Part shown: positions 2,224 through 23,453 of the stretch, piece after piece
Numbering within the stretch: the stretch's first letter is position 1
How the letters are laid out: the number at the start of each line of letters is the position of its first letter
The notes under the pieces: model-generated
What the model was told of the DNA's origin: nothing
What the model saw: the letters and a program-made list of their open reading frames with translations, nothing else
Databases searched by the model: none
Made by a program: the position numbers and the translations under genes
Origin: an uncultured Lachnospiraceae bacterium
Lineage (GTDB): Bacteria > Bacillota > Clostridia > Lachnospirales > Lachnospiraceae
DNA: 64,000 nt
Reading direction: 5' to 3'
NCBI GenBank assembly: GCA_905235745.1
Contig: CAJOMN010000001.1
Location: 310,001-374,000, forward strand

Positions 2224-4000
2224 TTATTTTCTCAACCCCTTTACTTAATCCTTCCGGAGAAGGTCTGTTGCCCTCGAAGCACTCATGATAAGGCGAAGAG
2301 GGAAAAGCATAATACCAACACTGATCCCCCTCGTTCGGAAGGTAAACTTTATACCCGTACCAGTCAAGCTCCCGGACGTCGGCTGCCGGATAATCAATTT
2401 GTTTTATTAAATAATCCTTGTGGGAAAATCTTCCCTCAGCCTCCTGGTAATCATATTTGATCAGTTCCTTCATGCTGTACAGGGAAGGAATGCTGATAAG
2501 AATAACGCATGCAGCAGATAATACCATAAGGACGATCCCGATCGGTCTCCTCCCGTTTTCCGACGCGGCTTTCAGCACAGACAGCGCGCGGTCGAGTATA
2601 TATCCCGTTACCATGAGAGGCAGCACCAGAACAGGTCCGTAACAGTATCTGATGAGCGGCGCTTTGAACAGATAGAACACAAGGCAGATCGTTATGACCG
2701 CCATCAGGAACTTTAAAAACCACTTTTTTCCGTCAAAAAAGGAGATTACCATTGCCGGAAGGCTTATGAGCATTGATAAGATAAACATTCTCGTCGCAAG
2801 AAACTGATCATGCCACCATGCCGGTATCCAGCCAAACAGGGAGTCGCCTCCGCTTCCGTTCACATTCATTGATTTTGCCCACGAACCTATTTCTCCGGCA
2901 TCCCTTGTCAGAACATCCCTGGTAAACTTCCACGGGACATTAAACAGATCTATACTGTCGACCGGATATACCAGCCATCCGCAAATGATAACGTTTCTGA
3001 TCAGGTACGGTACAATGACCGCAATTACAAGCACTGCGCAGATCACTATGCCTTTTACGTTTTTCTTTTTGATAAGCAGCACAAGCGGCCAGATTGTTAT
3101 CACTGCTATGACCGCGGCAGACAGTTTGTAGCCTACAAGTGCGAACGAACATACGGCAAGGAGACAATAACCCGATAGTTTGTTCCCGTCTGTCTCGTCT
3201 TCATATACCTCGACAAGCCGCAGCAGTATCCATATGATCAGATTGACCGTTATATAATCCGATTCCGGTGACGTTATCTCAAGAATACACACCGCAAAAT
3301 AAACGGGAGCGGCAAACCTTACGCATGTACTTACTATATGGGAGTGCGACGCCCGGCATGATGATCCCCGCGCATCAAGAGCCCTGATCCAGCCATATAT
3401 GCTGTATAGGCAAATGGTCGCAAATATGAATCCGCTGACGCTGTGAAGCGACTGACCTCCTGTAACAAAGCGCATACTGTACAGGGCGCACAGGGGAAAA
3501 TAGGCGCTGTTATAAGCCAGCCTCACATGGATATGTCCGAGACCTTTTATTACTCCGTAATCTTCTATCCAATGGATCGCCTGGGCATGATACAGCCCGG
3601 TATCATAGTGAAACGAGCTTTCAGCCGTAAACATGAGAGCCAGTACGAATAGTGCAATACCGGTAGCGGCAATGAAGTAACTGCCTTTTTTGCGTATTCT
3701 CCCGGAGGCTCCCGGAAGTACCGCACGAAACCGGCTTATCAGATCTTTACGGCACAAAACTGCGATGAGGACGCAGAAGGCTGTCATTATGATATTTGCA
3801 GCAAGACCGACGCCACCTATTAGGCTGAACAGTCCCGCATAGACAGTTGCGGTAACTATCCCCGCTATGACATTATCGCACCAGTTGAATTCGGGTTCCG
3901 AATCCCTGTCTATTTGCTTTGCGATCCTCGGAAGCAGATAATATCCTATCAGATATGATGTTATATAAATATACAACCAATTGCCTAATGTTACTAACAC
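2216..4000 (-). CDS. Large membrane protein, LIC_10190-like
   Basis: About 594 aa with some eleven to twelve predicted membrane helices. The N-terminus (helix followed by YLLPRIAKQ) and the loop FHYDTGLYHAQAIHWI resemble the LIC_10190-type membrane proteins of surface-polysaccharide loci, which are of unknown biochemistry. The open frame extends to a GTG at 4018 directly after the sigH stop, but that codon has no ribosome binding site. The GTG at 4000 has GGGAG six nt upstream and is chosen. It overlaps the downstream membrane-protein gene by 8 nt. It is probably involved in glycan assembly at the outer membrane face; function not established. Confidence 0.66.
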   Translation of the reverse strand: MLVTLGNWLYIYITSYLIGYYLLPRIAKQIDRDSEPEFNWCDNVIAGIVTATVYAGLFSLIGGVGLAANIIMTAFCVLIAVLCRKDLISRFRAVLPGASGRIRKKGSYFIAATGIALFVLALMFTAESSFHYDTGLYHAQAIHWIEDYGVIKGLGHIHVRLAYNSAYFPLCALYSMRFVTGGQSLHSVSGFIFATICLYSIYGWIRALDARGSSCRASHSHIVSTCVRFAAPVYFAVCILEITSPESDYITVNLIIWILLRLVEVYEDETDGNKLSGYCLLAVCSFALVGYKLSAAVIAVITIWPLVLLIKKKNVKGIVICAVLVIAVIVPYLIRNVIICGWLVYPVDSIDLFNVPWKFTRDVLTRDAGEIGSWAKSMNVNGSGGDSLFGWIPAWWHDQFLATRMFILSMLISLPAMVISFFDGKKWFLKFLMAVITICLVFYLFKAPLIRYCYGPVLVLPLMVTGYILDRALSVLKAASENGRRPIGIVLMVLSAACVILISIPSLYSMKELIKYDYQEAEGRFSHKDYLIKQIDYPAADVRELDWYGYKVYLPNEGDQCWYYAFPSSPYHECFEGNRPSPEGLSKGVEKISE

Positions 4001-4018
4001 TATCCGCTCCCTGTGCAC

Positions 4019-8819: not shown

Positions 8820-9488
8820 TTACCCCTCTTTTTGAAGTCTTTTTACCTCGTCTTCAAGGTTAAGCAGCCTTGTTATGAGTTCCGAGTTCTCCTTTTTCAG
8901 TGTCATTATATCTTCCTGTACCGGATCCGGAAGATCGGTCTGGTCAAGCGTCTCCCGCGGCATGGCGGAATCTTTTCTGTCGACTACATGACCCGGTACA
9001 CCCACTACAGTCGAGTGCGGCGGCACCTCTTCCAGTACGACCGACCCGGCGCCTATCTTGGAACCTTCTCCTATCGTAAACGAACCCAGTACCTTTGCGC
9101 CGGCCGATATCATAACATTATCGCATACTGTCGGATGTCTCTTCCCGGACTCCTTACCCGTACCTCCGAGCGTTACTCCCTGATAGAGCGTAACATTGTT
9201 CCCTATCTCCGCAGTTTCTCCGATAACAACACCGGTTCCGTGATCGATAAAGAACCCCTCGCCAATCTTAGCCCCCGGATGGATCTCTATGCCTGTCTTG
9301 CGCGCAGCACGCTGCGATATCCACCTGGCAAGAAAATAATGCTTCTTCAGATACAGTTTGTGGGCGGTTCTGTACCGCAGCATCACACGGAACGACGGAT
9401 ACAGAAATACTTCCATCGAAGAGTGTATCGCGGGATCCCGGTCCCTGACCACCGCCACTTCATTTTTTATCCTGCTTATCAGTCCCAT
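8820..9488 (-). CDS. cysE: Serine O-acetyltransferase (EpsC/CysE type)
   Basis: About 222 aa. It transfers acetyl from acetyl-CoA to L-serine, the first step of cysteine synthesis. Left-handed beta-helix hexapeptide repeats run from about residue 65 to 150 and include the catalytic region HPGAKIGEGFFIDHGTG and YQGVTLGGTG. The C-terminus is a coiled coil (LKKENSELITRLLNLEDEV) as in EpsC-type enzymes. The frame is open to 9551, but homologues begin MGLISRIKNEV, so ATG 9488 is chosen. Grouping with cysS is classical. Confidence 0.9.
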   Translation of the reverse strand: MGLISRIKNEVAVVRDRDPAIHSSMEVFLYPSFRVMLRYRTAHKLYLKKHYFLARWISQRAARKTGIEIHPGAKIGEGFFIDHGTGVVIGETAEIGNNVTLYQGVTLGGTGKESGKRHPTVCDNVMISAGAKVLGSFTIGEGSKIGAGSVVLEEVPPHSTVVGVPGHVVDRKDSAMPRETLDQTDLPDPVQEDIMTLKKENSELITRLLNLEDEVKRLQKEG

Positions 9489-9504
9489 AGAGTTTACCCG
9501 TCCT

Positions 9505-10983
9505 TCATTGCATATAACATACCGTATACTCTTTAAGATACAGATTTCCATAACCCATTGCGGTTAGGTTATCTATTATATCCTGATGCTCCGCCTGATT
9601 AATAATATATACGGTGTTTGGGCTCATATCAGCATCCTCACCGATATTAACCGAAACCTTGCCGAACGTAAAACTTTCTTCATCTTTGAAAGCTTCGTAC
9701 TCGGCAGGTGAGGCACCTGCAAACAGTGCTATCATAAGATTCCTGTGTTCAAAATCATCGGAAATGACCGATATATCCGAATCAGGCAAAGTCTTCATAG
9801 TTGACTTGATCGCTTCCCCTATACTCTTGTCAACTACCACTCCCTGCTCATGATCCACACTGTTATTAACTTCCGAATTGAAGTTTTCATAATAGTAATG
9901 GGTAAATGCCCAAAAACTTATAAAATAAACTGCCAGCACAATAATGTATGTGCCTTTCAGATTTTGAACTATATATATCAGTCCCTCGGTGATCAGAAGA
10001 CTTATCGCAAAAAACAGAGGCGCTGTAGCTTTGATATCAGCATTAGGCGTCATCAGATCGCAAATCAGCACAGCAATGATAAATAGCCACAAAATGATGC
10101 TATGATCATATTCCCTGTTTTTTATTGATCCTATTACTCTTCCGAGTGATACAACTACTCCGACAACTATTACCGGTACGGAAAACACATATATCGTTCC
10201 GAATGCGGAAGATACATTGAACGGATGCGTATCATCCCACAACAGTGCCCGTATATTTATTATGTTATGCCAGATATTTGCTAATCCGGACTGAAAGGTA
10301 AACCCTCCCGTAAAAGCAATTACTCCTGCTCCTATTATTGGGGGAACTACAAGCGCTGCCACTTCTCCGGTACTTGTCCTCCGAACCAGCACAAGGTAAA
10401 CAGCTGCAATTATCAAAAACACAAGAGTGGGTAAGACGGATGTTTCTCCTGTAAACAGAATGAGTGCAAACAATACTCCGGATACAGCAAATGTCCGGAT
10501 ACTCCTTATAGCACCCCCCCTCAGTAGAAAAAAGAAGGCTGCAGGAATCACATACAAAGAATACCAGTCACCTACTCCCGTCCTCTGTGCAATGAAAAAT
10601 ACAGGGAGTACGGTTACAAGCAGAGCCTCCAGAAAAGCATATTTCTTTTTTGCGGTCAGCTGTATTACAACCAGATATGAAAAAAACATACCGAAAAGAC
10701 CTCCGGCTACCGACAGTAGTCTTAACAGTTTGAGCGAAAACAGTCCACCCTTTAGTTTCATTAACAAAGCGTTCAGAATAATCGGCAGATTAACTCCGCT
10801 CATTGAAACTCCTGTTCCGAAATGCGCCAGACAATACGACTCATAGGCCGCCTTAAGTTCATCTATATGCATGTAATAGCATATCTCACCCAGATATTTA
10901 TATCTCGAATGAACAAACAGGACGGCTAACGCCGCAAAAAATAAATAATTATACTTTTCAAAATAATTAACGATCTTACCCAT
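9505..10983 (-). CDS. Membrane glycosyltransferase, PMT/ArnT (GT-C)-like
   Basis: About 492 aa with ten or more membrane helices. After the first helix the loop YYMHIDELKAAYESYCLAHFG followed by NLPI fits the PMT_2/ArnT pattern, where an acidic pair in the first loop binds the polyprenyl-phosphate sugar. The small C-terminal domain (about 390-492) is polar. ATG 10983 is chosen over the longer frame because GGAG sits 7 nt upstream and it overlaps the phosphonopyruvate decarboxylase stop by 8 nt. Coupling to the phosphonate genes suggests it acts on the same surface polymer; this is an inference. Confidence 0.68.
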   Translation of the reverse strand: MGKIVNYFEKYNYLFFAALAVLFVHSRYKYLGEICYYMHIDELKAAYESYCLAHFGTGVSMSGVNLPIILNALLMKLKGGLFSLKLLRLLSVAGGLFGMFFSYLVVIQLTAKKKYAFLEALLVTVLPVFFIAQRTGVGDWYSLYVIPAAFFFLLRGGAIRSIRTFAVSGVLFALILFTGETSVLPTLVFLIIAAVYLVLVRRTSTGEVAALVVPPIIGAGVIAFTGGFTFQSGLANIWHNIINIRALLWDDTHPFNVSSAFGTIYVFSVPVIVVGVVVSLGRVIGSIKNREYDHSIILWLFIIAVLICDLMTPNADIKATAPLFFAISLLITEGLIYIVQNLKGTYIIVLAVYFISFWAFTHYYYENFNSEVNNSVDHEQGVVVDKSIGEAIKSTMKTLPDSDISVISDDFEHRNLMIALFAGASPAEYEAFKDEESFTFGKVSVNIGEDADMSPNTVYIINQAEHQDIIDNLTAMGYGNLYLKEYTVCYMQ

Positions 10984-12094
10984 TAAGATGCTCCATGAAT
11001 CCGATCTTATTTTCCAAAGCAGTTGTTGTCGGACGTCCCAGGTCATCACGTGCCCCTATCTGACATTTGACCTCTATTAAAGTTAATCCATTCCTGTTTT
11101 GAGCAAGACCCAGTTCCCTGTCAAGTTCGTCATAATCTGATACACTTACGGCATTCGGATACCCGCATGCCTTTGCTATTCCGACTACGTCCACCGAAGA
11201 AGCCACCGTCGGCATTCCGCCTACCGTCTCATGGGCTCCGTTGTTGATCACGATATGTATCATATTTTTAGGACAGACTGAGCCGATAACAGCCATTGCT
11301 CCCATGTGCATCAGCATCGCACCGTCTCCGTCAATGCACCAGACCTTTTTTTCAGGTTTGCCTGTCGCAACTCCGAGGGCTATCGACGAGCAATGTCCCA
11401 TGGAACCGACTGTCAGAAAATCAGTCCCATGACCCTGTCCTGCAGCAGTACGTATTTCAAACAGCTCCCGGCTTATCTTGCCTGTCGTGGATATAACCGG
11501 ATCATCTCCCGTAACCTTTGCTATATGTCTAATTACCTCTTCTCTGTTTAACGAATACTCATTACCGTACTTAACCTTGCCATCATACTCAAGGGCTCCT
11601 TTCCGGATAATGAATGCAACCTGTTTCCCGGCATCAAGTAACTCTTTAAAATCACTCATCGCCTCCGATACTTCTTCATCGGTAGTTTCCCTCCCGATAA
11701 CAAAAGTGGAAACATCCATGTCATTCATCAGTTTTTCGGTAACAATACCCTGGAAGATGTGTTGGGGCTCATCATGAATTCCCGGTTCCCCTCTCCACCC
11801 GATAATAAACACAACCGGAATTGCATAAACTCTATCATTTACCAATGAAGCAAGCGGATTGATTATATTCCCCTCTCCGCTGTTTTGCATATATACAACC
11901 GGAATCCGAGAAGTGGCCAGATGGTAGCCCGCTGCCAACGCAAGGCAGTTTCCTTCATTTGCCGCTATTACATGGTGTTCCTTATCTATACCGTATTTTG
12001 ACATAAGAAAATTACACAGTGCCTTAAGCTGGCTGTCCGGCACCCCTGTATAAAACTGTGACCCTATGATCTCAAATAATTTTTCCGCTTTCAT
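10976..12094 (-). CDS. aepY: Phosphonopyruvate decarboxylase
   Basis: 372 aa thiamine-diphosphate enzyme converting phosphonopyruvate to phosphonoacetaldehyde, which pulls the unfavourable PEP mutase step forward. The N-terminal pyrimidine-binding domain has TGVPDSQLK and AANEGNCLALAAGYHL. The C-terminal pyrophosphate domain has CIDGDGAMLMHMGAMA and NNGAHETVGGMPT. Length and motifs match Ppd/AepY. No ribosome binding site precedes the ATG, and TAAAAT lies 8 nt upstream (see promoter). It is separated from the other phosphonate genes by the plus-strand YidC fusion and two minus-strand genes. Confidence 0.93.
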   Translation of the reverse strand: MKAEKLFEIIGSQFYTGVPDSQLKALCNFLMSKYGIDKEHHVIAANEGNCLALAAGYHLATSRIPVVYMQNSGEGNIINPLASLVNDRVYAIPVVFIIGWRGEPGIHDEPQHIFQGIVTEKLMNDMDVSTFVIGRETTDEEVSEAMSDFKELLDAGKQVAFIIRKGALEYDGKVKYGNEYSLNREEVIRHIAKVTGDDPVISTTGKISRELFEIRTAAGQGHGTDFLTVGSMGHCSSIALGVATGKPEKKVWCIDGDGAMLMHMGAMAVIGSVCPKNMIHIVINNGAHETVGGMPTVASSVDVVGIAKACGYPNAVSVSDYDELDRELGLAQNRNGLTLIEVKCQIGARDDLGRPTTTALENKIGFMEHLNG

Positions 12095-12190: not shown

Positions 12191-14815
12191 ATGGGTGAAT
12201 TTCTGTTTTATCTAACAATCAAACCGATATGGCTGCTCTTTGAGATTATATTCCGTACCATTTACAAAATATGTGCCAATCCCGGGATATCAATCCTTGC
12301 GGTAAGCATTGTCATGAATATTCTCGTTCTCCCCATGTATCTTAAGTCCGACGCTCTTCAGGATGCAGAGCGTAAAAAACAGAAGGACATGGAGTACTGG
12401 GTAAAGCACATACGCAAGACGTTCAAAAGCGACGAGAGATTCATGATTCTGTCCGAGTATTACAGGCAAAATGACTATCAGCCTTATTACGTTCTGAAAA
12501 GTTCGCTTTCTCTATTACTTCAGGTACCGTTCTTTGTTGCGGCATATGATTTTCTCTCTAATCTCACTCTGCTTCAGGGAACGCCATTTATGATGATAAA
12601 AGACCTCGGTCAGCCCGATGCTCTGATCCCTTTGGGAAGCATTCATATCAATCTGCTTCCTATACTTATGACTGCGATAAATCTCACGTCTGCGGCAATC
12701 TATACCAGAAAGGGTACAATCAAAGAAAAAGTTCAGACAACGGTTTTTGCTTTGGTATTTCTCGCGCTTTTGTACAAATCACCTTCCGGTCTTGTTTTCT
12801 ATTGGACTCTCAATAACATCTTTTCACTGTGTAAAAACATCGTGATGGATGTTATTTCGCATAACAAAGAATCACACGCCAAAAATAGCGAAGATCGACC
12901 GCTAAAAATGAAAAAATACGAGGATACGCGGAATACCGTGCGGATATGGGCACTTTCTTCCGTCCTTCTTGCGGTCTTTACCGGACTGTCAATACCTCTT
13001 TCCGTGATATCTTCATCTCCGATGGATTTTGCGGAAACACTAAAATATACTGACCCCTCCAGATATGCTCTCCTGTCATTCGGTCTTGCCGCAGGTACTT
13101 TTCTGCTATGGGGATCGGTTATTTTCTTTTTGGGAAACGCTGTTTTTCGAAAGATATGGAGCCGTATAATCTTCTGCTTCTCGCTCCTTGCAATTGTCAA
13201 TCATATGCTTTTTTCAGGGAACTTCGGCATCATCTCCTATACTCTTATGTACGATAATTCTCCGGAATATGATTTTTACAGCGAAATCCTCAATCTTATG
13301 TTCTGGATACTGTCTGCTCTTATACTGATCATCCTGTCCGGGAAAAATGTCAGAATTATGACTAATATACTGACTATTCTCATACTTGGCGAGAGCATTT
13401 TTTCCATCTACAATTTCGTCTCGGTAGAAAAAACCGTCCGATCTTCGTACCTTTATACAGACGAGAATGACACAAGTGTTAAACTTGCCGATATTAATGA
13501 CAAAATACTGAAGTTATCTGCAACAGAGAAAAACGTTGTCGTTATGATGCTCGACCGGTCGATCGGAGCATATATCCCTTACATGGTTGACGAGCGCCCG
13601 GACTTAAAGCGTGCTTTTTCGGGATTTACATACTATCCGAATACGGTATCGACAGGAACCGAGACAATAAATGCCTCGGGCGGACTGTTCGGCGGATATG
13701 AATATATGGTTGCGGAATCAAACAAAAGAAGCGATGTACTGTACAAGGATAAACAGAACGAAGCGCTGAAGCTGATGCCAACTTTGTTTGGAAACGCAGG
13801 ATACCACAGCACTCTTTGCAATCTGCCGGCTGCCAATTTGGAAGGATTTGTGACCGGTCAGGTCATATTTGATGATATGGAAAACTGTGATACCTATCAT
13901 GTTATAAACGGCGAATATGCAAACTACATGACAGAGAAGGAGAAAGCCTGCCTCTCGCTTGAACAGCAGAAGCGTAATTTCTTCTTCTACAGTCTATTCC
14001 GTTCTCTTCCTCTCGTGGCTCAAGAAGGACTATACGACAACGGAGATTACTTGTCTATGACACCCAACAACATCCGTGAGCACTTTATCACGAGCATGGT
14101 TTTTCTCCGTCTTATGCCCGAACTCACCGAAGTTACCGGTGACAGTCACGGAGAACTAATCATGATGCTCAACGATGCTCCCCACGAAAACACGCTGCTA
14201 AATCCGCCGGATTATGAACCTGAGGCATCTGTGCGCCTGTTTGAAATGGAAGATCGTACTCTTCCCGACGGAAGGCAGATGGCTCTTGCCAGAAGAGATC
14301 AGGAAAGTCATTACGATTCAAATATGGCGACTTTTATAGCTATAGGCAAATGGATGGATCATCTGAAAAGGCTGGGGGTATATGACAATACACGAATAAT
14401 CATAGCAGCCGACCACGGCTTCAATCTGGATCAGTTCTCATACCTTGAGATTCCGCAAATTGGGCTTGATGCCGAAAGTGTGAATCCGGTTCTTCTTGTT
14501 AAGGATTTTGGGGCAACAGGCGAAGGATTTGTTACAGACGACTCATTCATGACCAATGCAGACGTTCCTTCCATAGCAATGTCAGGAATAATAGATAATC
14601 CCATCAACCCGTTCACGGGCAATGCTGTAAACAATGACAGGAAATATGAAGCTCCAATCGTTGTGATCGGCGACAAATATGAAGTTAACGCTGATACCGA
14701 TACTGTTTTTGACAGAGAAGATATACCCTGGTATTCGGTGCACGACGATATTTTTAATCCTGATAACTGGGAACTTGTGAGAGAAGCCGATCACTCTTCG
14801 ACATATCCGAAATAG
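12191..14815 (+). CDS. YidC/Oxa1-like domain fused to alkaline-phosphatase-superfamily transferase domain
   Basis: 874 aa. Residues 1-230 resemble YidC/Oxa1: a hydrophobic start, a first core helix with ILVLPMYL, a charged cytoplasmic hairpin (about 52-95), LSLLLQVPFFVAAYDFL, and a final PSGLVFYWTLNNIFS. At the position of the conserved groove arginine of YidC there is Asn43. Residues 245-430 add about five helices. Residues 445-870 form an extracytoplasmic sulfatase/alkaline-phosphatase domain: VVVMMLDRS (metal Asp455), a Thr-rich nucleophile region VSTGTETINAS (486-496) and AADHGFNLD (Asp741, His742). It could place a phospho- or phosphono-group on a surface glycan or lipid. Neighbours make AEP. 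Its 3' end overlaps the convergent gene by 62 bp. Confidence 0.85.
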   Translation: MGEFLFYLTIKPIWLLFEIIFRTIYKICANPGISILAVSIVMNILVLPMYLKSDALQDAERKKQKDMEYWVKHIRKTFKSDERFMILSEYYRQNDYQPYYVLKSSLSLLLQVPFFVAAYDFLSNLTLLQGTPFMMIKDLGQPDALIPLGSIHINLLPILMTAINLTSAAIYTRKGTIKEKVQTTVFALVFLALLYKSPSGLVFYWTLNNIFSLCKNIVMDVISHNKESHAKNSEDRPLKMKKYEDTRNTVRIWALSSVLLAVFTGLSIPLSVISSSPMDFAETLKYTDPSRYALLSFGLAAGTFLLWGSVIFFLGNAVFRKIWSRIIFCFSLLAIVNHMLFSGNFGIISYTLMYDNSPEYDFYSEILNLMFWILSALILIILSGKNVRIMTNILTILILGESIFSIYNFVSVEKTVRSSYLYTDENDTSVKLADINDKILKLSATEKNVVVMMLDRSIGAYIPYMVDERPDLKRAFSGFTYYPNTVSTGTETINASGGLFGGYEYMVAESNKRSDVLYKDKQNEALKLMPTLFGNAGYHSTLCNLPAANLEGFVTGQVIFDDMENCDTYHVINGEYANYMTEKEKACLSLEQQKRNFFFYSLFRSLPLVAQEGLYDNGDYLSMTPNNIREHFITSMVFLRLMPELTEVTGDSHGELIMMLNDAPHENTLLNPPDYEPEASVRLFEMEDRTLPDGRQMALARRDQESHYDSNMATFIAIGKWMDHLKRLGVYDNTRIIIAADHGFNLDQFSYLEIPQIGLDAESVNPVLLVKDFGATGEGFVTDDSFMTNADVPSIAMSGIIDNPINPFTGNAVNNDRKYEAPIVVIGDKYEVNADTDTVFDREDIPWYSVHDDIFNPDNWELVREADHSSTYPK

Positions 14816-16067
14816 TCTCTGCTGAAATCCTCTCAGATGTTTGTATAAGGTAATCCACCGTACGACTGGCCGCCTCTCCCTGATTCGCCCATGTCTCCTT
14901 ACGTGCCTTATCACGCCCCTTTGCAAGGGATTCATCATTAACAGTTTTGTCAATCACTTCTTTGATGTTATCAAAATCCTCTTCCTTGAGCGGAATTCCT
15001 ATATATGGCAGGATCTTAAGAGTCCACATATCTTCTTTAAGCCACGCCGCGTCATAAGGCGACTTGTCAAATTCAATTGCAGCGTAAATAAATGGTCTGT
15101 CAAATATAAGCGCATAATCGAACATAACACCGGAAAAATCAGTGATCATGATATCCGATCTGCTTAGGACATCGAAGTTGTCATTATCACGATTCCAGTG
15201 CATTCTCTCACTTTCCGGAAACTTTGACATAAGACCGTTCATCAGGTCTTTTTCCGACTCAAAAGACTGGGGATGCGGGCGTATAATGATGTTGTATCCC
15301 GTATTGATAAGCGCGGAAATGATCCGTTCACCAAAGCGCGATAAAATAGCGGTCTCACCCCATGTTGGCGCAAGCAGGACTGTCTTGGTTCCGGTATCTT
15401 CCCCGGGATCTTTCATATCCCTTTTTTGCGCATCATATCTGGCCTTCATTGTATCAAGATATGTTATTCCCGTAAGGCACGTATCACGCCTCGGAATGCC
15501 TCTTAATTCTTCTATTTCGCGAAGTTGCTTCTCCTCATACTCTCCGGATATCAATACCGCATCATAATGATCCAGCCCGAACATTCTGTAAAATGTCGTA
15601 TCACCCGGCTGGTGAAGTATATGAACATACCGATCAGCGGTTTTCGATCTCTTCCACTGAAGCACATCCAGCCCGGGTGTAGTAGCAAGAACTACGCCCG
15701 CATTCATGATGTTCAGCTTTGAAAATGCTTTATTTCCTTCACCGATAAACAATGTTTTAACGTGATCGTACTTCTCCAAAAGGGCTGGATCATCCTCCGA
15801 CATGGTCCAATATTGAATATCAATACCTCTTTTTTCAAACTCGTCGCACACAGGCTTGAAAACATTCCAGTACCTCTTACTGTCCGAAAATATAACATAT
15901 GGAATCTTGTCCCCGTCAGCTGATACCGCTTTTCCACCGGATAGCAGGAACTTCAGTTTCAATTTAAATTTCTGTAATACAAAGAAACCGGCAGATACAG
16001 CACCGATTATTATAGTAAAAAGCATGCTTCCCGTTCCGGGATCTATGTACAATAATACCTGACTCAT
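14754..16067 (-). CDS. CDP-glycerol glycerophosphotransferase-family protein (TagB/TagF-like)
   Basis: 437 aa. It starts with a membrane anchor, LYIDPGTGSMLFTIIIG. From about residue 50 it shows the TagB/TagF fold: DSKRYWNVFKPVCDEFEKRG, HILHQPGDTTFYRM, LLAPTWGE, IIIRPHPQSFESE and SDIMITDFSGVMFDYAL. Known members transfer glycerol- or ribitol-phosphate from CDP-alcohols to teichoic acid. The window has no CDP-glycerol or CDP-ribitol genes, but a CMP-phosphonate synthase candidate lies directly upstream. A CMP-AEP-type donor is therefore a reasonable, untested alternative. It is cytoplasmic-facing and peripheral. Confidence 0.82.
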   Translation of the reverse strand: MSQVLLYIDPGTGSMLFTIIIGAVSAGFFVLQKFKLKLKFLLSGGKAVSADGDKIPYVIFSDSKRYWNVFKPVCDEFEKRGIDIQYWTMSEDDPALLEKYDHVKTLFIGEGNKAFSKLNIMNAGVVLATTPGLDVLQWKRSKTADRYVHILHQPGDTTFYRMFGLDHYDAVLISGEYEEKQLREIEELRGIPRRDTCLTGITYLDTMKARYDAQKRDMKDPGEDTGTKTVLLAPTWGETAILSRFGERIISALINTGYNIIIRPHPQSFESEKDLMNGLMSKFPESERMHWNRDNDNFDVLSRSDIMITDFSGVMFDYALIFDRPFIYAAIEFDKSPYDAAWLKEDMWTLKILPYIGIPLKEEDFDNIKEVIDKTVNDESLAKGRDKARKETWANQGEAASRTVDYLIQTSERISAETISDMSKSDRLLSQVPSYQD

Positions 16068-16097: not shown

Positions 16098-16811
16098 TTA
16101 CATAATCTCATTTAAATATGAAGGATCAACAGCGCACAGTTCCTCTACGGAATCAATCTCTGTTACTGACTCATTATCAATGGGATGTACCGAAAGGCTC
16201 AGTTTGTCCAGATTGTTGTTAACGACATCATCCCAGAACATCTCTTCATATCCGCCCGTTTTATACATATCATCTATCGCATCGGCAAGGATTGCCGAAT
16301 CTTTTTGCATAAAATATGCAAGACCACACATATTATAGCAGTCATCTCCGACCTTTCCAACCCGGGTTATCCTTCCGTTACTGTCAAGATCAAAAACCCA
16401 GTCATCAGAATGACCCTCGACAAATTTTGCGAAATAGCAGGATGAATCAATATTCTTCTTAAATATCTCCGGATTAGAAATATACAGGTCGGCTTCACAT
16501 ATAAAAGTGTCCCGTCCCCTGATAATGTCGGTAACAACCTTGATGGAAGAGATATTATTTACAGTCTCAAACTCCCTGTTATAAACTATATACAGACCAG
16601 GATACTTTTGCTCAAGGTAGGAAAAGCGGCCTCCCAAATATCCTGTAATGACATATATTTCTTCAACATTACGGAACTTTAGACCCTCAATGATCGTTTC
16701 GATCATCGGAGTGCCGCAAACCTTAATGAGTGGCTTCGGAGTATTGATTGTAAGTGGTCTCATTCTCGTCCCGAGTCCTGCCGCCATTAAAACCGCAATT
16801 TCACCATTCAT
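16098..16811 (-). CDS. LicC/PntC-like phosphonate (or phosphocholine) cytidylyltransferase
   Basis: About 237 aa nucleotidyltransferase with the signature VLMAAGLGTRMRPLTINTPKPL near the N-terminus and metal-binding acids in ICEADLYI. The later part (WVFDLDSNGRITRVGKVGDDCYNMCGLAYF) fits the LicC/PntC group. PntC enzymes join CTP and AEP (or a related phosphonate) to make CMP-phosphonate; LicC uses phosphocholine. Position between PEP mutase and a TagF-like transferase favours the PntC role. ATG 16811 has AGAGG just upstream and is preferred to GTG 16817. Confidence 0.85.
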   Translation of the reverse strand: MNGEIAVLMAAGLGTRMRPLTINTPKPLIKVCGTPMIETIIEGLKFRNVEEIYVITGYLGGRFSYLEQKYPGLYIVYNREFETVNNISSIKVVTDIIRGRDTFICEADLYISNPEIFKKNIDSSCYFAKFVEGHSDDWVFDLDSNGRITRVGKVGDDCYNMCGLAYFMQKDSAILADAIDDMYKTGGYEEMFWDDVVNNNLDKLSLSVHPIDNESVTEIDSVEELCAVDPSYLNEIM

Positions 16812-16837
16812 AACCACCTCTCGGTATGTACAGATAT

Positions 16838-18133
16838 TTACAGTTCATCTATCAAAGTAATAATATCCTTAAATGGCATCAGTTGCGAGTCAACCTCATA
16901 TGCTCTGTGATTTTTCAGTATTTCCTCGGCAGTCTGAACCATTACGGGAAATGCAGCACGCATGAGTTGATTGGCATATATCACGATGTTAATTCCGTGC
17001 GCAGATAACTCTTCTTCTGTAACCTGATTAAACGATGTAGGTACAACAACTAACGGCGTATCTTTATCCCCGTTTCTGAAACTGTCACAGAATTCAAATA
17101 TCTCAGCGGGATCTTTTTTTCGGCTGTGTATCATGATCCCGTCTGCTCCCGCATCACGGAACGCATACGCACGTTTTAAGGCGTCCTCCATACCTCGTTC
17201 AAGAATAAGAGATTCTATACGCGCTATTATCATAAAATCTTCCGTCAACTGTGCCCGTTTACCGGCTGCAATCTTTGCCGAGAAGTTCTCTATGGAGTCC
17301 TGAGTCTGCTCGACTTCGGTTCCAAAAAGCGAATTCTTCTTGAGTCCACATTTATCCTCTATAATTACCGCAGAGACACCCATTCTCTCAAGTGTCCTGA
17401 CATTATAAACAAAATGTTCGGTAAGACCGCCCGTATCACCATCAAGTATTATCGGTTTGGTTGTTACCTCCATTATATCGTTAACCGTACGCATACGCGA
17501 TGTCATATCAACAAGTTCAATATCAGGCTTTCCTCTGTCGGTACTGTCACAAAGCGATGATATCCACATTCCGTCAAACTGGTCTAGCCTGCCGTTTTTT
17601 TCTACAACGGTTTTTTCGGTTATAAGCCCCGTAAGACCGCTGTGAGCCTCCATTATCTTGACAATCGGGCATATTTCGATAAGCCGGCGCAGCCGCTTTC
17701 TTCTGTATTCGGGCATAGCAAGCTTCTCTTTAAGCAGAAGATCGGCTTTTGATACGGTCTCATTATATGTATATCCGACTTCAATCAACTCCCCGCCCGT
17801 TTTCTCAAGTGCCTTTAAACAATTCTCCCGAAGCGCCCTCTCCGGTCCCGTTTTCCAGTTGTCACCATGGATAATTATGTCAGGTCTGATCCTATCGACA
17901 ATGTCATCATATGTCATATCATCCTGAACTACCACATCATCAACACCTTCTAGTGTGCGGTACAGAGATATCCTGTCCTCAAGCGATACGGTAGGAAATC
18001 TGTTATAGCGTATAAGTGCCTTGTCGGAAAGTGCACCTACGGTAACTCTTCCGTATTTTCCTGCTTCCCTGAGAATATTCAAATGCCCTTCATGAATTAT
18101 ATCGGTTGTAAAACATGTGTATACTTTCTTCAC
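16838..18133 (-). CDS. aepX: Phosphoenolpyruvate mutase with N-terminal HxGH nucleotidyltransferase domain
   Basis: About 431 aa. Residues 1-135 form a TagD-like nucleotidylyltransferase domain (YTCFTTDIIHEGHLNILR with the HEGH motif, then DIIIHGDNW). Residues 145-431 are PEP mutase, which rearranges PEP to phosphonopyruvate and forms the C-P bond. The diagnostic loop EDKCGLKKNS is at 259-268, and the metal and barrel motif LDGDTGG precedes it. An upstream in-frame ATG (18172) would overlap the transaminase, but GTG 18133 has GGAG 8 nt before it and is chosen. With the LicC/PntC-like gene downstream, two unrelated nucleotidyltransferase folds serve one pathway. Confidence 0.92.
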   Translation of the reverse strand: MKKVYTCFTTDIIHEGHLNILREAGKYGRVTVGALSDKALIRYNRFPTVSLEDRISLYRTLEGVDDVVVQDDMTYDDIVDRIRPDIIIHGDNWKTGPERALRENCLKALEKTGGELIEVGYTYNETVSKADLLLKEKLAMPEYRRKRLRRLIEICPIVKIMEAHSGLTGLITEKTVVEKNGRLDQFDGMWISSLCDSTDRGKPDIELVDMTSRMRTVNDIMEVTTKPIILDGDTGGLTEHFVYNVRTLERMGVSAVIIEDKCGLKKNSLFGTEVEQTQDSIENFSAKIAAGKRAQLTEDFMIIARIESLILERGMEDALKRAYAFRDAGADGIMIHSRKKDPAEIFEFCDSFRNGDKDTPLVVVPTSFNQVTEEELSAHGINIVIYANQLMRAAFPVMVQTAEEILKNHRAYEVDSQLMPFKDIITLIDEL

Positions 18134-18155
18134 GGGATAATCTCCATCTGCAGTG

Positions 18156-19292
18156 TTACCGCTGCATGTCATATTTTACGGGAACACTGACTCCCACAAA
18201 TCCTAATGCCTCTTCGAATACCTTCCAGAAGTCCTTAATGTCTCCTTCATCTATCGCGCCGAGGGCACACAGTCTGAATGTTCCTTTGTTTTGCATCTTT
18301 CCGGGATATATCGTAAAGCCTCTTTCGTAACAGTAGTCGTGTATTTTCTCAAAATCCCACCCCGGATCATCCGGATATTCAACAGCAGCAACAAGTCCCG
18401 CCTGAACTTCTCTTCTCAAAGCCTCACGGAGCCCTAAATCATCTATCCCTTTACGAATGGCATTCATTACTCTCGTATGCCTTTTCCACTTTTCTTCCTC
18501 ACTCTCTTCAAAATACTCGATAAGGGCCTGCTTTGCGGCGTAGATGGTCTGAACCGGAGGGGTAAAATGCATCTCTCCCGTCGACTCGAAATACTCATAC
18601 TGCATGTAGAGATTGCAGTAATATGACCTCTTCGGATAATTCTTTGACTGTTCAATTATGTCTCTTTTTCCGATGATATATGACAGGCCGGTCATACCCA
18701 TGATACCTTTTTGGGCTGAGGCCATGCAAAAATCGATGTTATCTTCATATACGTTTATGGGGATCATGGCATAGGCGCTTGTTGTGTCCGTAATCAAAAA
18801 AGCTCCGTATCTATGGGCAAGTGTCCCGATCTCTCTTACAGGGTTTAACAGTCCCGTACCGGTCTCATGATACGTGACATACACGTACCCTATATCCTTA
18901 TTTTCTTTCAGCGCTTTTTCAATAACGGACAGATCCGGCTTGTCATCTATAGGCTGCTTAATCTCTACAAGCGGCATATTGTAGTATTTACACACATCAC
19001 ATGCCCTTTGCGAGTACGATCCGTTATTAATGATGAGAGCCTTTTTCCCTTCCGCAAGAAGCGAATTAAGTGCTACGTCTATACAGATTGTTCCGGATCC
19101 GCAAAACAGAACAGCCGTATACTCTTTTGTATCGCCGTGAACTATACGCACCAGATCATCTCTCATAGGCGCCATAATACCGGCAAACTCTTTTTCTCTC
19201 GGACAGATATCCGGTACTACCTGTGCCATCTTAACCGTGTCAGTCGTCGTTGACGGACCCGGATTTAATAGAATATTCCTCTTAATATCCAT
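18156..19292 (-). CDS. 2-aminoethylphosphonate aminotransferase (AEP-forming)
   Basis: 378 aa class V (fold type I) PLP enzyme related to PhnW. Markers are NPGPSTTT at the N-terminus, FCGSGTICIDVALNS, the cofactor aspartate region ITDTTSAYAM, and the PLP lysine Lys195 in SAQKGIMG. In this setting it should run as the biosynthetic enzyme, aminating phosphonoacetaldehyde to AEP. It is the first gene of the leftward aepT-aepX-pntC-tagF-like operon. AAGGGA precedes the ATG. No phnX or C-P lyase gene, which would point to degradation, is present. Confidence 0.9.
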   Translation of the reverse strand: MDIKRNILLNPGPSTTTDTVKMAQVVPDICPREKEFAGIMAPMRDDLVRIVHGDTKEYTAVLFCGSGTICIDVALNSLLAEGKKALIINNGSYSQRACDVCKYYNMPLVEIKQPIDDKPDLSVIEKALKENKDIGYVYVTYHETGTGLLNPVREIGTLAHRYGAFLITDTTSAYAMIPINVYEDNIDFCMASAQKGIMGMTGLSYIIGKRDIIEQSKNYPKRSYYCNLYMQYEYFESTGEMHFTPPVQTIYAAKQALIEYFEESEEEKWKRHTRVMNAIRKGIDDLGLREALRREVQAGLVAAVEYPDDPGWDFEKIHDYCYERGFTIYPGKMQNKGTFRLCALGAIDEGDIKDFWKVFEEALGFVGVSVPVKYDMQR

Positions 19293-19803: not shown

Positions 19804-20766
19804 TTAATCCTTCTCGTCATCCGCCTCAGTCAGCTTCTCATCAACGAAATATCTTGGTCGTTCTTTCGTTTCAATATATGTCTTTGCCACATACTGCCCT
19901 ACAACTCCGATCGACATCGTAAGAATGCCCCCTATTATCCACACCGAAAGCATCAAGGATGTCCATCCGGGAACTACCTCGCCTCTTACTTTCCTGAATA
20001 TTGAATAACCCAGAGCTATGATACTTACAATTATCATGAGTATTCCAGAAGCGACTATGATGCTCATTGGTCTTACAGAGAAAGAAGTTATACCGTCAAG
20101 GGCAAAACCTATCATCTTTCGTGGAGTATACTTAGAGACTCCGGCCATCCGCTTTTTTCTTTCGTAATACACGCACTCATATTTAAATCCCATTGAAGGA
20201 ATCAGACCTCTTAAAAAAAGATTCCTTTCTTTATATTCAGATAAAGCTTCAATCGCTTTTTTACTCATAAGTCTGTAATCAGCATGATTATAAATACTGT
20301 CAATACCAAGCTTTCTTTGGAATCTGTAGAATGTCTGCGCCGTAAATCTTTTGAAAAATGTGTCAGTTTCCCTTGACGATCTGACCCCATATACAATATC
20401 ACAACCTCTATTGTAATAGTCAATCATCTCCTTCATTGCCTGTTCGTCATCCTGTAGATCCGCATCGATGGAAATTGCCATGTCACATGAACTCTTTGTC
20501 TCCATGAGTCCGGCAATAAGAGCATTCTGATGCCCAACATTCCCGGCAAGTTTAATCCCCCTCACATATTTGTTTGTCTTATTATTCTCGGATATAATAT
20601 CCCATGTTCTGTCTGTACTTCCGTCATCCACAAATAGTATATAGCTGTCAGGACAAAGATCCTTTTCCGGGATCATTTCGTCCAAAAGGAGCGACAGTGA
20701 TTCTATTGTTGATCGAAGAACCGCCTCTTCGTTATAGCACGGAACCACTATTGCAAGTTTATTCAT
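19804..20766 (-). CDS. GT2 glycosyltransferase, CsbB/GtrB/DPM1-like
   Basis: 320 aa. An N-terminal GT-A domain (VPCYNEEAVL, FVDDGSTDRTWD, SIDADLQDD) is followed by two C-terminal membrane helices (about 235-300). Such enzymes put a sugar on undecaprenyl phosphate on the cytoplasmic side. It overlaps the YfhO-family gene by 4 nt, and AGGAGG-like GGGAGG precedes its ATG. CsbB-YfhO pairs are known to glycosylate lipoteichoic acid in Bacillus and Listeria, so this pair probably does a comparable surface glycosylation. Confidence 0.87.
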   Translation of the reverse strand: MNKLAIVVPCYNEEAVLRSTIESLSLLLDEMIPEKDLCPDSYILFVDDGSTDRTWDIISENNKTNKYVRGIKLAGNVGHQNALIAGLMETKSSCDMAISIDADLQDDEQAMKEMIDYYNRGCDIVYGVRSSRETDTFFKRFTAQTFYRFQRKLGIDSIYNHADYRLMSKKAIEALSEYKERNLFLRGLIPSMGFKYECVYYERKKRMAGVSKYTPRKMIGFALDGITSFSVRPMSIIVASGILMIIVSIIALGYSIFRKVRGEVVPGWTSLMLSVWIIGGILTMSIGVVGQYVAKTYIETKERPRYFVDEKLTEADDEKD

Positions 20767-23453
20767 CTGATAAACCTCCCAACCAAAACCAACATCGCGT
20801 AAATCACAGGAATTATATAAATAACAAACATCATGGCCAAGTATATGACATCAAAGACCGTTTGCGAGAATCGATCCGCAATAAGCGGCACCGTCCCAGA
20901 CATTTTAACAAACAATACCGCGATAACGATAGAAATAAAGGATACTATGGCGCCGGCCTTCATTCCACGCGGCACAAATGTCATAATGATCTCATTATCC
21001 CCTGTAACCGCCGGGATGCCGGTAAACAACCCCGCATATCTGTAGTGCCCGGTCTTAGTGCCGTTGTTTGTCACTTCAAAGCCCTCGTCATATGCAAGCG
21101 GTATCACTATATCCGTATCCTTATCGGGAATATATTTATTAATGATGATACTGCTGCCATCGGTCTTTATGTCTTCCTCATAAGAGATACTGTCGCACAG
21201 TCCGCGAAGTTTATCAAGATCTATAGTCATTATCCTGATCGTATACTCCTCATCCTTGTTGCTTACATCGGATAATATCTCGATCTGCGCCGTTTCATCC
21301 TCAAAAGTCCCCAGATATACCGCATTGCAGTTAAAATAGGCAGGATATAGGGTATTGTCATATTCACCTATACTGGGGATCAGGACGTCTTGTCCGTTAA
21401 CCTTAATGGTAGTATTCCTGTATTCCTGATCGACGCATTCTCCCATCATATAACAGGCTTTCTTACCGCTTAAATCGAGACCGATCTTTTTATCGGCGCA
21501 CGCCGTATATTCAGCAACATATTCCGCAATATCGCCCTCACCTCCGAGTACAGCGAATGCTTTATTATGTATTGTAACGGTATTTTCATCTTTGTATTCT
21601 GTATCAGACCCGGTACCTACTGTATTAACCCACGGAAGAACATACATGGGCTCATACAGATAATATGTTACCCGTCCACCCGACGCGTCCTCTATATCCG
21701 CCTTGTCCTTGAGGATATAGAGTTTCTCATCCATTGGGATTCTCGTAATGATCTGACGGATTCCTATAAGAGCATCGGAAAAGACCGTTCCTCCCGCATC
21801 AAGAAGCCGTGTATACTGGATAGTATACCCCCATGTCTGCGCCGCTCTCTGAAGATCCGGAGACACCATATGTGTCCAATTGGAAAGAACAGGTCTTCTA
21901 ATAACAAGACCGTAATTTGCGTTAAGTGACTCATCCGGATTCTTCATCCTGTATATGTTTTCGGGAGCAAGGTCAAAGGCTTCCGCCAGTTCATTGCAAA
22001 GCTTTATATATTCACCGTTCTGTTCGTAACCTTCTGTATAGCCTGTCACAAATGTCGGCTGTCCGATAAAAACATAACCGTACAGTATGATCTCGGCAAC
22101 AACCAGAATGGATGAGAAATGCGCACAGCTTCCCTTTTTGTATAGTATAAGAAAAAGGTATACGGCAAACGTGAAGATCATAACAACAACCTGCATGTGA
22201 AACACCTTTCGAACGTCCATTCCGGGATGATTCGAATAATAGCATATACCGAATACACATATAACAGCAGATAAGATGAATACCATACCACCGATGACAG
22301 GTCTTGAAACAGTCACGCTACCAGTCCCGTCAGAAGTCTTTGATACCGAAGATACATCATCCGACAGCAGATATCCCGCACACATGGCAAACGTAACATA
22401 TATCATAAATCCATTACGGATCGGATACTGGACATAGGAGCCGAAATGCCAGATAAGGTTGGTGCTTTCCAGGAAGATCTCAAGCGCAACTATGAAGCAT
22501 GACATGCATATATTAAAGACCAGTTTCCTGTTCTTGCGGTTCCGGACGAGTCCGACTGCTATGACGGCGGATGAAAAGGAAAGACCCAGAAGCGCAAACC
22601 ACCTTGTAGTATAGGCGGGCTCTATTGTGTTTAATATACTTATATATTTTGCTAAAATGCCTCCCCCACTCTCATTATTGAACCGTGAGGACGTAAGTGT
22701 CTGAATGAGCTGCGGGAAGAGTATGAATGCCGATATCCCGATACTTGCAGCGGTTCCGATCCCAAGGCTGAACAAATGATAGTTTCTGTCTTTTTCTTTG
22801 AATATACGATCCGATATAAGCTTTGTTCCGAGAATGAGTACCACATACATCAGTATCATAAAGGAAAGATAATATGAATTGATAAGGGAAAGCGACAGGA
22901 ATATAACATAGATCGCCGGCCTGTTGTCACACACCAGCCTCTTAAGTCCGACAAGGATAAGAGGAAACAGAAAAGCAACATCCATCCACTGGTTAGTCAT
23001 ATAGAGTGTCAGCACAAAACCGCAAAATCCGTAGCCTACACTCATTATGACATGAGCGTAGGATCTTATCCCTTTATTTAAGGAGAGCAGGACGTACATG
23101 GACATTGCCATGCATACCATCTTAATCAAAAGAAAGACTGACAGGCTCTCGAGCAGCCTGTCCCTCTTCACAAATAAAAAGAACAGGTTGAAAACGCTCA
23201 GATTGCTGCATCCCGATGTACTCATTGCCTGATTGGAGCCGAGCGCTGTGTAATAGTCATAAAATATCGGCTTAGTTCCATGCAGAAAATCATATACATG
23301 ATAGTAGAACGCCGCAATCTGCTGACCCATGTCATGATAATCAATAGTGTTTGCGCCAAACGGGTATATATGCTTAACAGCGAGGATGACAAGTCCCATC
23401 AGCATGGTTATGGCAATCGTATAAGAGATCTTTATGCATTCTGTGCGCTTCAT
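20763..23453 (-). CDS. YfhO-family membrane glycosyltransferase
   Basis: 896 aa with about 12-14 membrane helices and a large extracytoplasmic domain (about residues 490-840), then two more helices at the C-terminus. The first loop, GANTIDYHDMGQQIAAFYYHVYDFL, is typical of YfhO proteins, which are GT-C-fold enzymes that take sugar from undecaprenyl phosphate outside the membrane. It is translationally coupled to the downstream CsbB-like GT2. The acceptor is unknown. Confidence 0.88.
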   Translation of the reverse strand: MKRTECIKISYTIAITMLMGLVILAVKHIYPFGANTIDYHDMGQQIAAFYYHVYDFLHGTKPIFYDYYTALGSNQAMSTSGCSNLSVFNLFFLFVKRDRLLESLSVFLLIKMVCMAMSMYVLLSLNKGIRSYAHVIMSVGYGFCGFVLTLYMTNQWMDVAFLFPLILVGLKRLVCDNRPAIYVIFLSLSLINSYYLSFMILMYVVLILGTKLISDRIFKEKDRNYHLFSLGIGTAASIGISAFILFPQLIQTLTSSRFNNESGGGILAKYISILNTIEPAYTTRWFALLGLSFSSAVIAVGLVRNRKNRKLVFNICMSCFIVALEIFLESTNLIWHFGSYVQYPIRNGFMIYVTFAMCAGYLLSDDVSSVSKTSDGTGSVTVSRPVIGGMVFILSAVICVFGICYYSNHPGMDVRKVFHMQVVVMIFTFAVYLFLILYKKGSCAHFSSILVVAEIILYGYVFIGQPTFVTGYTEGYEQNGEYIKLCNELAEAFDLAPENIYRMKNPDESLNANYGLVIRRPVLSNWTHMVSPDLQRAAQTWGYTIQYTRLLDAGGTVFSDALIGIRQIITRIPMDEKLYILKDKADIEDASGGRVTYYLYEPMYVLPWVNTVGTGSDTEYKDENTVTIHNKAFAVLGGEGDIAEYVAEYTACADKKIGLDLSGKKACYMMGECVDQEYRNTTIKVNGQDVLIPSIGEYDNTLYPAYFNCNAVYLGTFEDETAQIEILSDVSNKDEEYTIRIMTIDLDKLRGLCDSISYEEDIKTDGSSIIINKYIPDKDTDIVIPLAYDEGFEVTNNGTKTGHYRYAGLFTGIPAVTGDNEIIMTFVPRGMKAGAIVSFISIVIAVLFVKMSGTVPLIADRFSQTVFDVIYLAMMFVIYIIPVIYAMLVLVGRFIR

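Follow-up and report, generated by a model that had tools for sequence, protein, structure and literature searches.

The fusion protein and its active site

The stretch analysed here (the window: 64,000 nucleotides of contig CAJOMN010000001.1, assembly GCA_905235745.1, from an uncultured Lachnospiraceae bacterium; coordinates are window positions) contains an open reading frame at 12191-14815 on the plus strand, which starts with ATG, is open throughout and encodes 874 residues. Its product, referred to as the fusion or YidC-AP, joins a YidC/Oxa1-like part to an alkaline-phosphatase-superfamily (AP) domain; the PF04464 protein encoded next to it at 14754-16067 is referred to as GPT. The fusion is one conserved membrane protein of two parts, built from a YidC/Oxa1 fold, five further helices and the AP domain:

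12191-12880, plus strand: YidC/Oxa1-like module, residues 1-230 (PF02096; Foldseek matches 3wo6 and 6al2), with the groove position N43 at 12317-12319
12926-13441, plus strand: five further transmembrane helices, residues 246-417 (model secondary structure, hydropathy, loop charges)
13508-14782, plus strand: extracytoplasmic AP domain, residues 440-864 (PF00884, Foldseek), with D455, T492, H665, D741, H742, K771 and D791

When the fusion was scanned against Pfam, PF02096 (60KD_IMP) exceeded its gathering score over residues 32-219 (72.8 bits against a cut-off of 35), and PF00884 (Sulfatase) reached 33.4 bits against a cut-off of 25. In NCBIfam, the YidC subfamily domain model TIGR03592 (yidC_oxa1_cterm) fell narrowly below its cut-off (79.4 against 84.3 bits), which speaks against a plain YidC label. 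An AlphaFold2 model built from an alignment of 80 rows (the window fusion and 79 relatives, also used for all residue counts below) had a mean pLDDT of 89.6 and a pTM of 0.82. Residues 1-232, modelled alone, matched YidC 3wo6 (Foldseek TM 0.69/0.74, 3.5 Å over 223 columns) and also YidC 6al2, and the full model placed helices at 246-275, 290-314, 317-340, 362-385 and 387-417 between both domains. Both the Oxa1-fold membrane part and the roughly five further helices proposed in an earlier first-pass annotation, made from the letters alone, were therefore recovered. The structural comparison with YidC and EptA/LtaS that it had suggested also put the AP domain near LtaS and EptA: the best 50 of 560 Foldseek matches to this part included PbgA, phosphonate monoester hydrolases (PMH), LtaS, EptA, MCR-1 and sulfatases; identities were 10-15% and the whole-chain rmsd was large. 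When the 80-row profile was compared with known structures, YidC was matched at E 3e-12 and AP-superfamily proteins more weakly, the best being choline-sulfatase at 9e-6, with LtaS at 0.003. The loop charges (hydropathy, with K and R mostly on the inferred cytoplasmic loops) fit a C1 hairpin and linker inside and an AP domain outside.

The occurrence of the fusion was followed by a scan of genome contigs, in which at least 568 stretches were confirmed and the best 80 were kept, giving 79 loci; this sample is biased toward the window sequence, includes loci from the same contig or genome, and has many loci that stop at contig ends. Every one of the 79 loci contains at least one frame that matches both parts; therefore, the fusion is not a chance or chimeric frame. 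Plasmid records gave seven matches, none covering more than 80% of the query, and the five best covered 24-26% of it, lying within the YidC part and about 27% identical to it.

LtaS and EptA share a five-helix membrane layout, and like these phosphotransferases the fusion has five transmembrane helices followed by an extracytoplasmic AP domain, as judged from the model and the loop charges. Residues D455, T492, H665, D741, H742, K771 and D791 were invariant in all 80 rows. Among these are candidates for the Glu/Asp, Thr, His and Asp-His metal and active-site residues of LtaS/EptA-type enzymes, and we take D455, T492, H665 and D741-H742 to be the equivalents of the Asp-Thr-His-Asp-His set of LtaS. 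The first-pass annotation had located D455, the STGTET stretch and D741-H742 correctly. Its reading of STGTET as a Thr-rich nucleophile motif held for the last Thr (T492), the candidate nucleophile in an LtaS/EptA-like AP domain, but not for the remainder, which is variable (13 of 80 rows have Thr at position 490). In comparison with LtaS, EptA, MCR-1 and PbgA, the fusion differs in its N-terminal Oxa1 module, in the low identity given above and in NCBIfam, where no lipoteichoic acid (LTA) synthase or EptA curated model was among its matches at E 0.1 and the sole AP-type match was PehA (14.9 bits against a cut-off of 900). S1 sulfatases carry a formylglycine motif, C/S-x-P-x-R. This motif was absent from the nucleophile stretch of the window fusion, and at the nucleophile position itself 80 of 80 rows have Thr. 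The fusion is classed here as a variant membrane AP-superfamily phosphotransferase, and from these residues and the layout its AP domain is predicted to be a transferase rather than a hydrolase, putatively one using a phospholipid donor.

Regarding the YidC part, the fold and the last-helix motif P-S/A-G-L..YW are common to the fusion and to YidC/Oxa1/Alb3 insertases such as that of B. halodurans (3wo6), whereas the fusion carries Asn, Ser or Gln at the groove position, has the AP domain attached and is separate from the housekeeping copy. PMC8920935 describes the groove positive charge as strictly conserved in YidC. At position 43 of the fusion, N was found in 72 rows, S in seven and Q in one, with a positive charge in 0 of 80. 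For comparison, 31 housekeeping YidCs of the same family were aligned, namely that of the window genome (L001 1216-2529) and the 30 best-scoring loci (L130-L159) of a 60-genome draw; these had Y in 13, K in nine, N in five and R in four, so that 18 of the 31 were without a positive charge and only 13 had one. Therefore, the missing Arg is not diagnostic: the first-pass annotation was right about Asn43 but not in using it as evidence against a housekeeping role, and groove Asn as proof of a lost insertase function was ruled out. The conclusion itself, that the fusion is not the housekeeping insertase, stands because a separate YidC gene exists in the window genome (C14:98611, 142.1 bits for PF02096). 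Against the same 31 proteins, D54 of the fusion lies in a stretch gapped there, N164 replaces Q and N208 replaces G, S or T. In the tree, the YidC parts of the fusions grouped as a separate, long-branched clade with 100/100 support.

GPT as partner of the fusion

14754-16067, minus strand: GPT, a PF04464 CDP-glycerol glycerophosphotransferase-like protein with an N-terminal YIDPGTGSM segment (PF04464 62.7 bits; co-occurrence; adjacency in relatives)

GPT was detected in 62 of the 79 loci, PepM in nine, phosphonopyruvate decarboxylase (Ppd) in nine and matches to the 2-aminoethylphosphonate (AEP) aminotransferase in eight. A GPT gene lay within 200 bp of 65 of 101 distinct fusion copies, always on the same strand (65/65), upstream in 45 cases and downstream in 20. 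The catalytic domain of GPT is that of TagB, TagF and TarL (PF04464), from which GPT differs by its N-terminal YIDPGTGS segment, present in 47 of 64 GPT frames, or by a YidC module in its place, as described below.

Co-occurrence was followed in two draws, one of 150 genomes from the family of the window genome and one of 341 genomes from its class. In the family draw, a full-length fusion was present in seven genomes, and in four more the matches were partial or weak. A GPT match at an E value below 1e-100 was present in all seven carriers and in none of the 143 others (Fisher p 3e-12, ignoring relatedness); two other family genomes matched GPT at about 1e-30 through YidC-GPT proteins. In the class draw, the fusion was found at E below 1e-30 in 11 genomes, eight of them from one genus, with strong GPT matches in 10 of the 11 against 0 of 330 others (Fisher p 2e-18, again ignoring relatedness), and two further genomes matched at 1e-31 to 1e-34, likewise via YidC-GPT proteins. 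As G000 and G022 were carriers in both draws, the distinct carriers number 16, and in 15 of these a teichoic-type PF04464 GPT accompanies the fusion; the exception, G389, has PepM. In these draws, homologues of the fusion were thus not found to occur independently of phosphonate or teichoic acid genes, in agreement with the first-pass annotation.

A survey of co-occurrence with pepM, which the same annotation had proposed, gave a mixed outcome: PepM over its cut-off was enriched in carriers, both in the family draw (5/7 against 10/143) and in the class draw (9/11 against 19/330), but was found at only nine of the 79 loci. Therefore, GPT is the near-constant companion of the fusion, and phosphonate synthesis a frequent one.

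Some arrangements depart from a simple pair. Locus L045 has five YidC-AP copies around one GPT, and L051 is grouped with it, as is genome G135 described below. In genome G004, contig C45 carries Ppd, nucleotidyltransferase, PepM, GPT and AEP aminotransferase genes in one run (L167 1494-7275) with no fusion adjacent, and its three fusions are all on other contigs. At L022, a VTC-domain gene (9218-9940; PF09359, 133.3 bits) is directly upstream of a fusion without a local GPT; further members of its cluster were found in L033 and L099.

The YidC-GPT architecture and the headgroup genes

In six of nine fetched regions, the reciprocal architecture was found, in which the YidC module is fused to GPT instead of to the AP domain. 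These frames encode 632-710 residues with YidC first, and in all five YidC-GPT proteins scanned both PF02096 (107.6-117.8 bits) and PF04464 (36.6-57.3 bits) exceeded their cut-offs; the sixth, L161, was detected by phmmer only. A stand-alone AP gene (551-756 residues) adjoins YidC-GPT in three of the six loci, with Sulfatase scores of 33.7 (L160), 19.9 (L164) and 52.4 bits (L165), and all seven invariant AP residues were kept in the four stand-alone APs aligned. AEP genes adjoin YidC-GPT in L162 and L163. Four of the 150 family genomes (G022, G051, G086 and G135) have YidC-GPT, and six more matched through window-type GPT only; a stand-alone AP was found in three of these four and in none of the other 146, save the G052 fusion protein itself. 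In the tree, the YidC parts of YidC-AP and of YidC-GPT each occupied one side of a branch with 100/100 support, on long branches, and a tree holding both together was not rejected (p-AU 0.302). The YidC-like, AP and GPT parts keep company while the fusions between them change, the pattern expected of one machine.

G022 carries both architectures, YidC-AP with GPT at L102 and YidC-GPT with a stand-alone AP at L160. G135 has five AP paralogues on five contigs (L183, L187-L190; one frame with a stop) and one YidC-GPT match. Following YidC-GPT in L160 (7696-7959) and L161 (5268-5528) is a gene for a protein of 87-88 residues with the motif YIDPSV(V/I)TY, which resembles the YIDPGTGSM segment at the N terminus of window-type GPT and is possibly a fourth part supplied in trans.

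AEP genes flank the fusion in the window on both sides, as the first-pass annotation had placed them and as the NCBIfam matches corroborate:

10976-12094, minus strand: Ppd (TIGR03297, 456.7 bits), divergent from the fusion gene and 96 bp from it
16098-16817, minus strand: LicC/PntC-like nucleotidyltransferase (PF00483 44.1 bits, PF12804 36.2 bits)
16838-18172, minus strand: cytidylyltransferase-like domain fused to a phosphoenolpyruvate mutase (PF01467 and PF13714; TIGR02320 415.7 bits)
18156-19292, minus strand: 2-aminoethylphosphonate aminotransferase (TIGR03301, 424.9 bits)

By comparison with PMC6697681, the product of 16098-16817 probably makes CMP-AEP. The product of 9505-11049, hydrophobic by eye, had no Pfam or NCBIfam match; a relative adjoins Ppd and the fusion in L024, and the protein may be a glycosyltransferase belonging to the same pathway. 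Near the AEP cluster are also a YfhO-type membrane protein (20763-23453) and a CotH-kinase protein with a lamin-tail domain (23471-25507), and the window further encodes a LIC_10190-family membrane protein at 2216-4018 (NF047510, 253 bits against a cut-off of 100).

In the relatives, the headgroup genes vary. Choline-type genes were found at 11 of the 79 loci, AEP genes at nine and a nucleotidyltransferase alone at eight, and a nucleotidyltransferase-aminotransferase fusion at eight, two of which are also counted as choline or AEP. Family identities come from Pfam scans of representatives, in which choline kinase, an EamA transporter (taken as LicB-like), a BCCT transporter and nucleotidyltransferases were identified. 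The nucleotidyltransferase joined to a class I/II aminotransferase-fold domain was observed near GPT or YidC-AP at L061 (6921-8723), in similar form at L025, L059, L072, L078 and L091, and likewise at L164 (4717-6576); as a guess, it makes CDP-ethanolamine or a similar headgroup. The first-pass annotation had favoured moving or attaching an aminophosphonate group across the membrane. The adjoining AEP genes and the enrichment of PepM agree with such a role, but limiting it to AEP is too narrow, given PepM at nine of 79 loci and choline-type genes elsewhere.

The distribution of headgroups was then compared with the protein trees. On the 110-row fusion tree, AEP required eight changes against a shuffled mean of 10.6, one of 500 shuffles being as low, and is thus weakly clustered. 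A phosphonate-specific fusion was rejected as a general rule, as the AEP copies (11 of 110 rows, two with the same sequence) are spread over this tree. Two further comparisons used labels given per locus, so that several copies share one label and clustering is inflated; L059 and L091, with two labels each, and unlabelled loci were left out of them. For the 31 labelled fusion rows, AEP took four changes (shuffled mean 9.8, 0/500 as low), choline five (10.3, 0/500) and the nucleotidyltransferase-aminotransferase type five (5.6, 167/500). For the 25 GPT rows, the corresponding values were five (7.1, 34/500), six (8.5, 34/500) and six (5.6, 500/500).

LicD (PF04991) was undetected in five of 21 genomes with YidC-AP or YidC-GPT, and three of these five (G036, G284 and G383) carry PepM; therefore, LicD is not the general transferase. 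The LicABC-D phosphocholine and Pnt phosphonyl-tailoring pathways, as presented in PMC6697681, likewise activate the choline or AEP destined for surface glycans with a cytidylyl group, and the systems described here differ from them in these LicD-negative carriers.

A putative headgroup relay and its alternatives

Taken together, the domains, the folds, the conserved AP residues, the coupling to GPT, the variable headgroup genes and the reciprocal YidC-GPT architecture form the computed basis for a relay. To judge from these sequence data, the fusion is probably an AP-type surface transferase working with GPT. A cytidylyltransferase would make a CDP- or CMP-activated headgroup, AEP in the window genome and choline or others in relatives, and on the cytoplasmic side the membrane-anchored GPT would use this headgroup, most likely to charge a lipid. 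The Oxa1-fold module would offer a hydrated groove for the charged lipid to reach the outer leaflet, where the AP domain, acting in an LtaS/EptA-like manner through a metal-bound Thr492, would move the lipid's phospho- or phosphono-headgroup onto a glycan or teichoic-type polymer at the surface. The lipid-linked donor, for which isoprenoid phosphate or diacylglycerol is a candidate carrier, and the surface acceptor are both putative. If a CDP-alcohol enzyme works in the cytoplasm and a phosphotransferase outside it, carrying the intermediate from one to the other would be a natural task for the middle part. Flipping of a headgroup lipid by the Oxa1 module is suggested only tentatively; a preprint (PMC10491306) reports in vitro scrambling of liposome phospholipids by E. 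coli YidC. The strongest new evidence for the relay is the mirror YidC-GPT architecture; the place of GPT within the AEP gene run of G004 also speaks for it, as do the carriers in which LicD was undetected. The module may, as a possibility short of a likely one, be a dedicated headgroup-donor flippase wired either to the consumer (YidC-AP) or to the producer (YidC-GPT), which together with GPT and a cytidylyltransferase would form a LicD-free route for AEP, phosphocholine and related zwitterionic groups.

Several observations weigh against the relay. No recognised headgroup gene was within reach at 45 of the 79 loci, and the GPT and fusion trees are not cleanly sorted by headgroup. GPT was lacking at 17 of the 79 loci, five of them longer than 22 kb and the others shorter; in the window, the GPT and fusion genes converge (their 3' ends overlap by 62 bp) instead of running in the same direction; and G389, the lone carrier without a GPT match at 1e-30, does have PepM. 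G051 and G383 have YidC-GPT with no AP found by one query; the G051 contig and L161 both end at the YidC-GPT gene. The stand-alone AP of L164 is under the Sulfatase cut-off of 25 bits and the G052 fusion has no Sulfatase match, yet both keep the active-site residues. LicD, present in 16 of the 21 genomes, could do the transfer in those, and the product of GPT could just as well be a polymer as a lipid donor.

One alternative is an LtaS-like polymerase, in which the AP domain would build a teichoic-type polymer that GPT primes or extends in the cytoplasm, with the AEP or choline genes merely decorating it. The 45 loci without a headgroup gene are consistent with it, as are the teichoic acid enzymes within PF04464, weak NCBIfam matches to TarF and TarL, LtaS structures within the best 50 of 560 Foldseek matches and, in G052, a CTP_transf gene (putatively TagD-like) between GPT and the fusion. 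We consider it unlikely, however: the headgroup-activation genes beside the GPT/fusion pair vary, NCBIfam gave no LTA synthase match for the fusion, and several fusion copies per locus, as in the five with one GPT at L045, fit several acceptors better. A hydrolase role, in which the AP domain would cut phospho- or phosphono-diesters off glycans or lipids of the surface, is more improbable still. The top neighbours in structure and in sequence include phosphonate monoester hydrolases, but the fusion genes sit with the C-P bond-forming PepM and with cytidylyltransferases, and the membrane-tethered layout and the position of the Thr nucleophile resemble LtaS and EptA.

The two other alternatives concern the Oxa1 part. 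It may be an assembly or folding module that docks GPT or inserts helices while the AP domain acts alone, which differs from the relay in the role of Oxa1 only. Relatives of the AP part without a fused YidC, and the chaperone roles of YidC described in PMC7618853, agree with this view. We nevertheless rate it as having a minor chance, somewhat better than that of the polymerase, as YidC is in frame in all 79 YidC-AP loci and is fused to GPT, not to AP, in six others, which links the module to both chemical steps. Least probable is a second, specialised YidC dedicated to envelope-protein insertion, with AP as a passenger. It would account for the true YidC fold, and the 18 of 31 housekeeping YidCs without a groove charge make the absence in the fusion compatible with insertase activity; against it, the presence of the fusion follows GPT, and its YidC part is the long-branch clade described above.

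No YidC-sulfatase or YidC-glycerophosphotransferase fusion was described in the titles and abstract openings of the open-access papers listed; the domains are known, and this search found neither their combination nor its GPT partner nor the mirror fusion. PMC6697681 calls phosphonyl tailoring after C-P bond formation enigmatic and states that further genes common in such clusters are undescribed; a word search of its main text found no mention of YidC, sulfatase or glycerophosphotransferase. The fusion and GPT are a candidate for the missing phosphonyl transfer step in Clostridia, and they also occur in choline-type loci. It also seems that a bare annotation of such genes as "membrane protein insertase YidC" would mislead. 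If the relay is true, a YidC-fold module would be used for surface chemistry instead of protein insertion, which would give a physiological meaning to the lipid scrambling by Oxa1-family proteins reported in the preprint cited above (PMC10491306). The findings suggest an undescribed way for bacteria to decorate their surface with groups of this kind, for example aminoethylphosphonate or choline.

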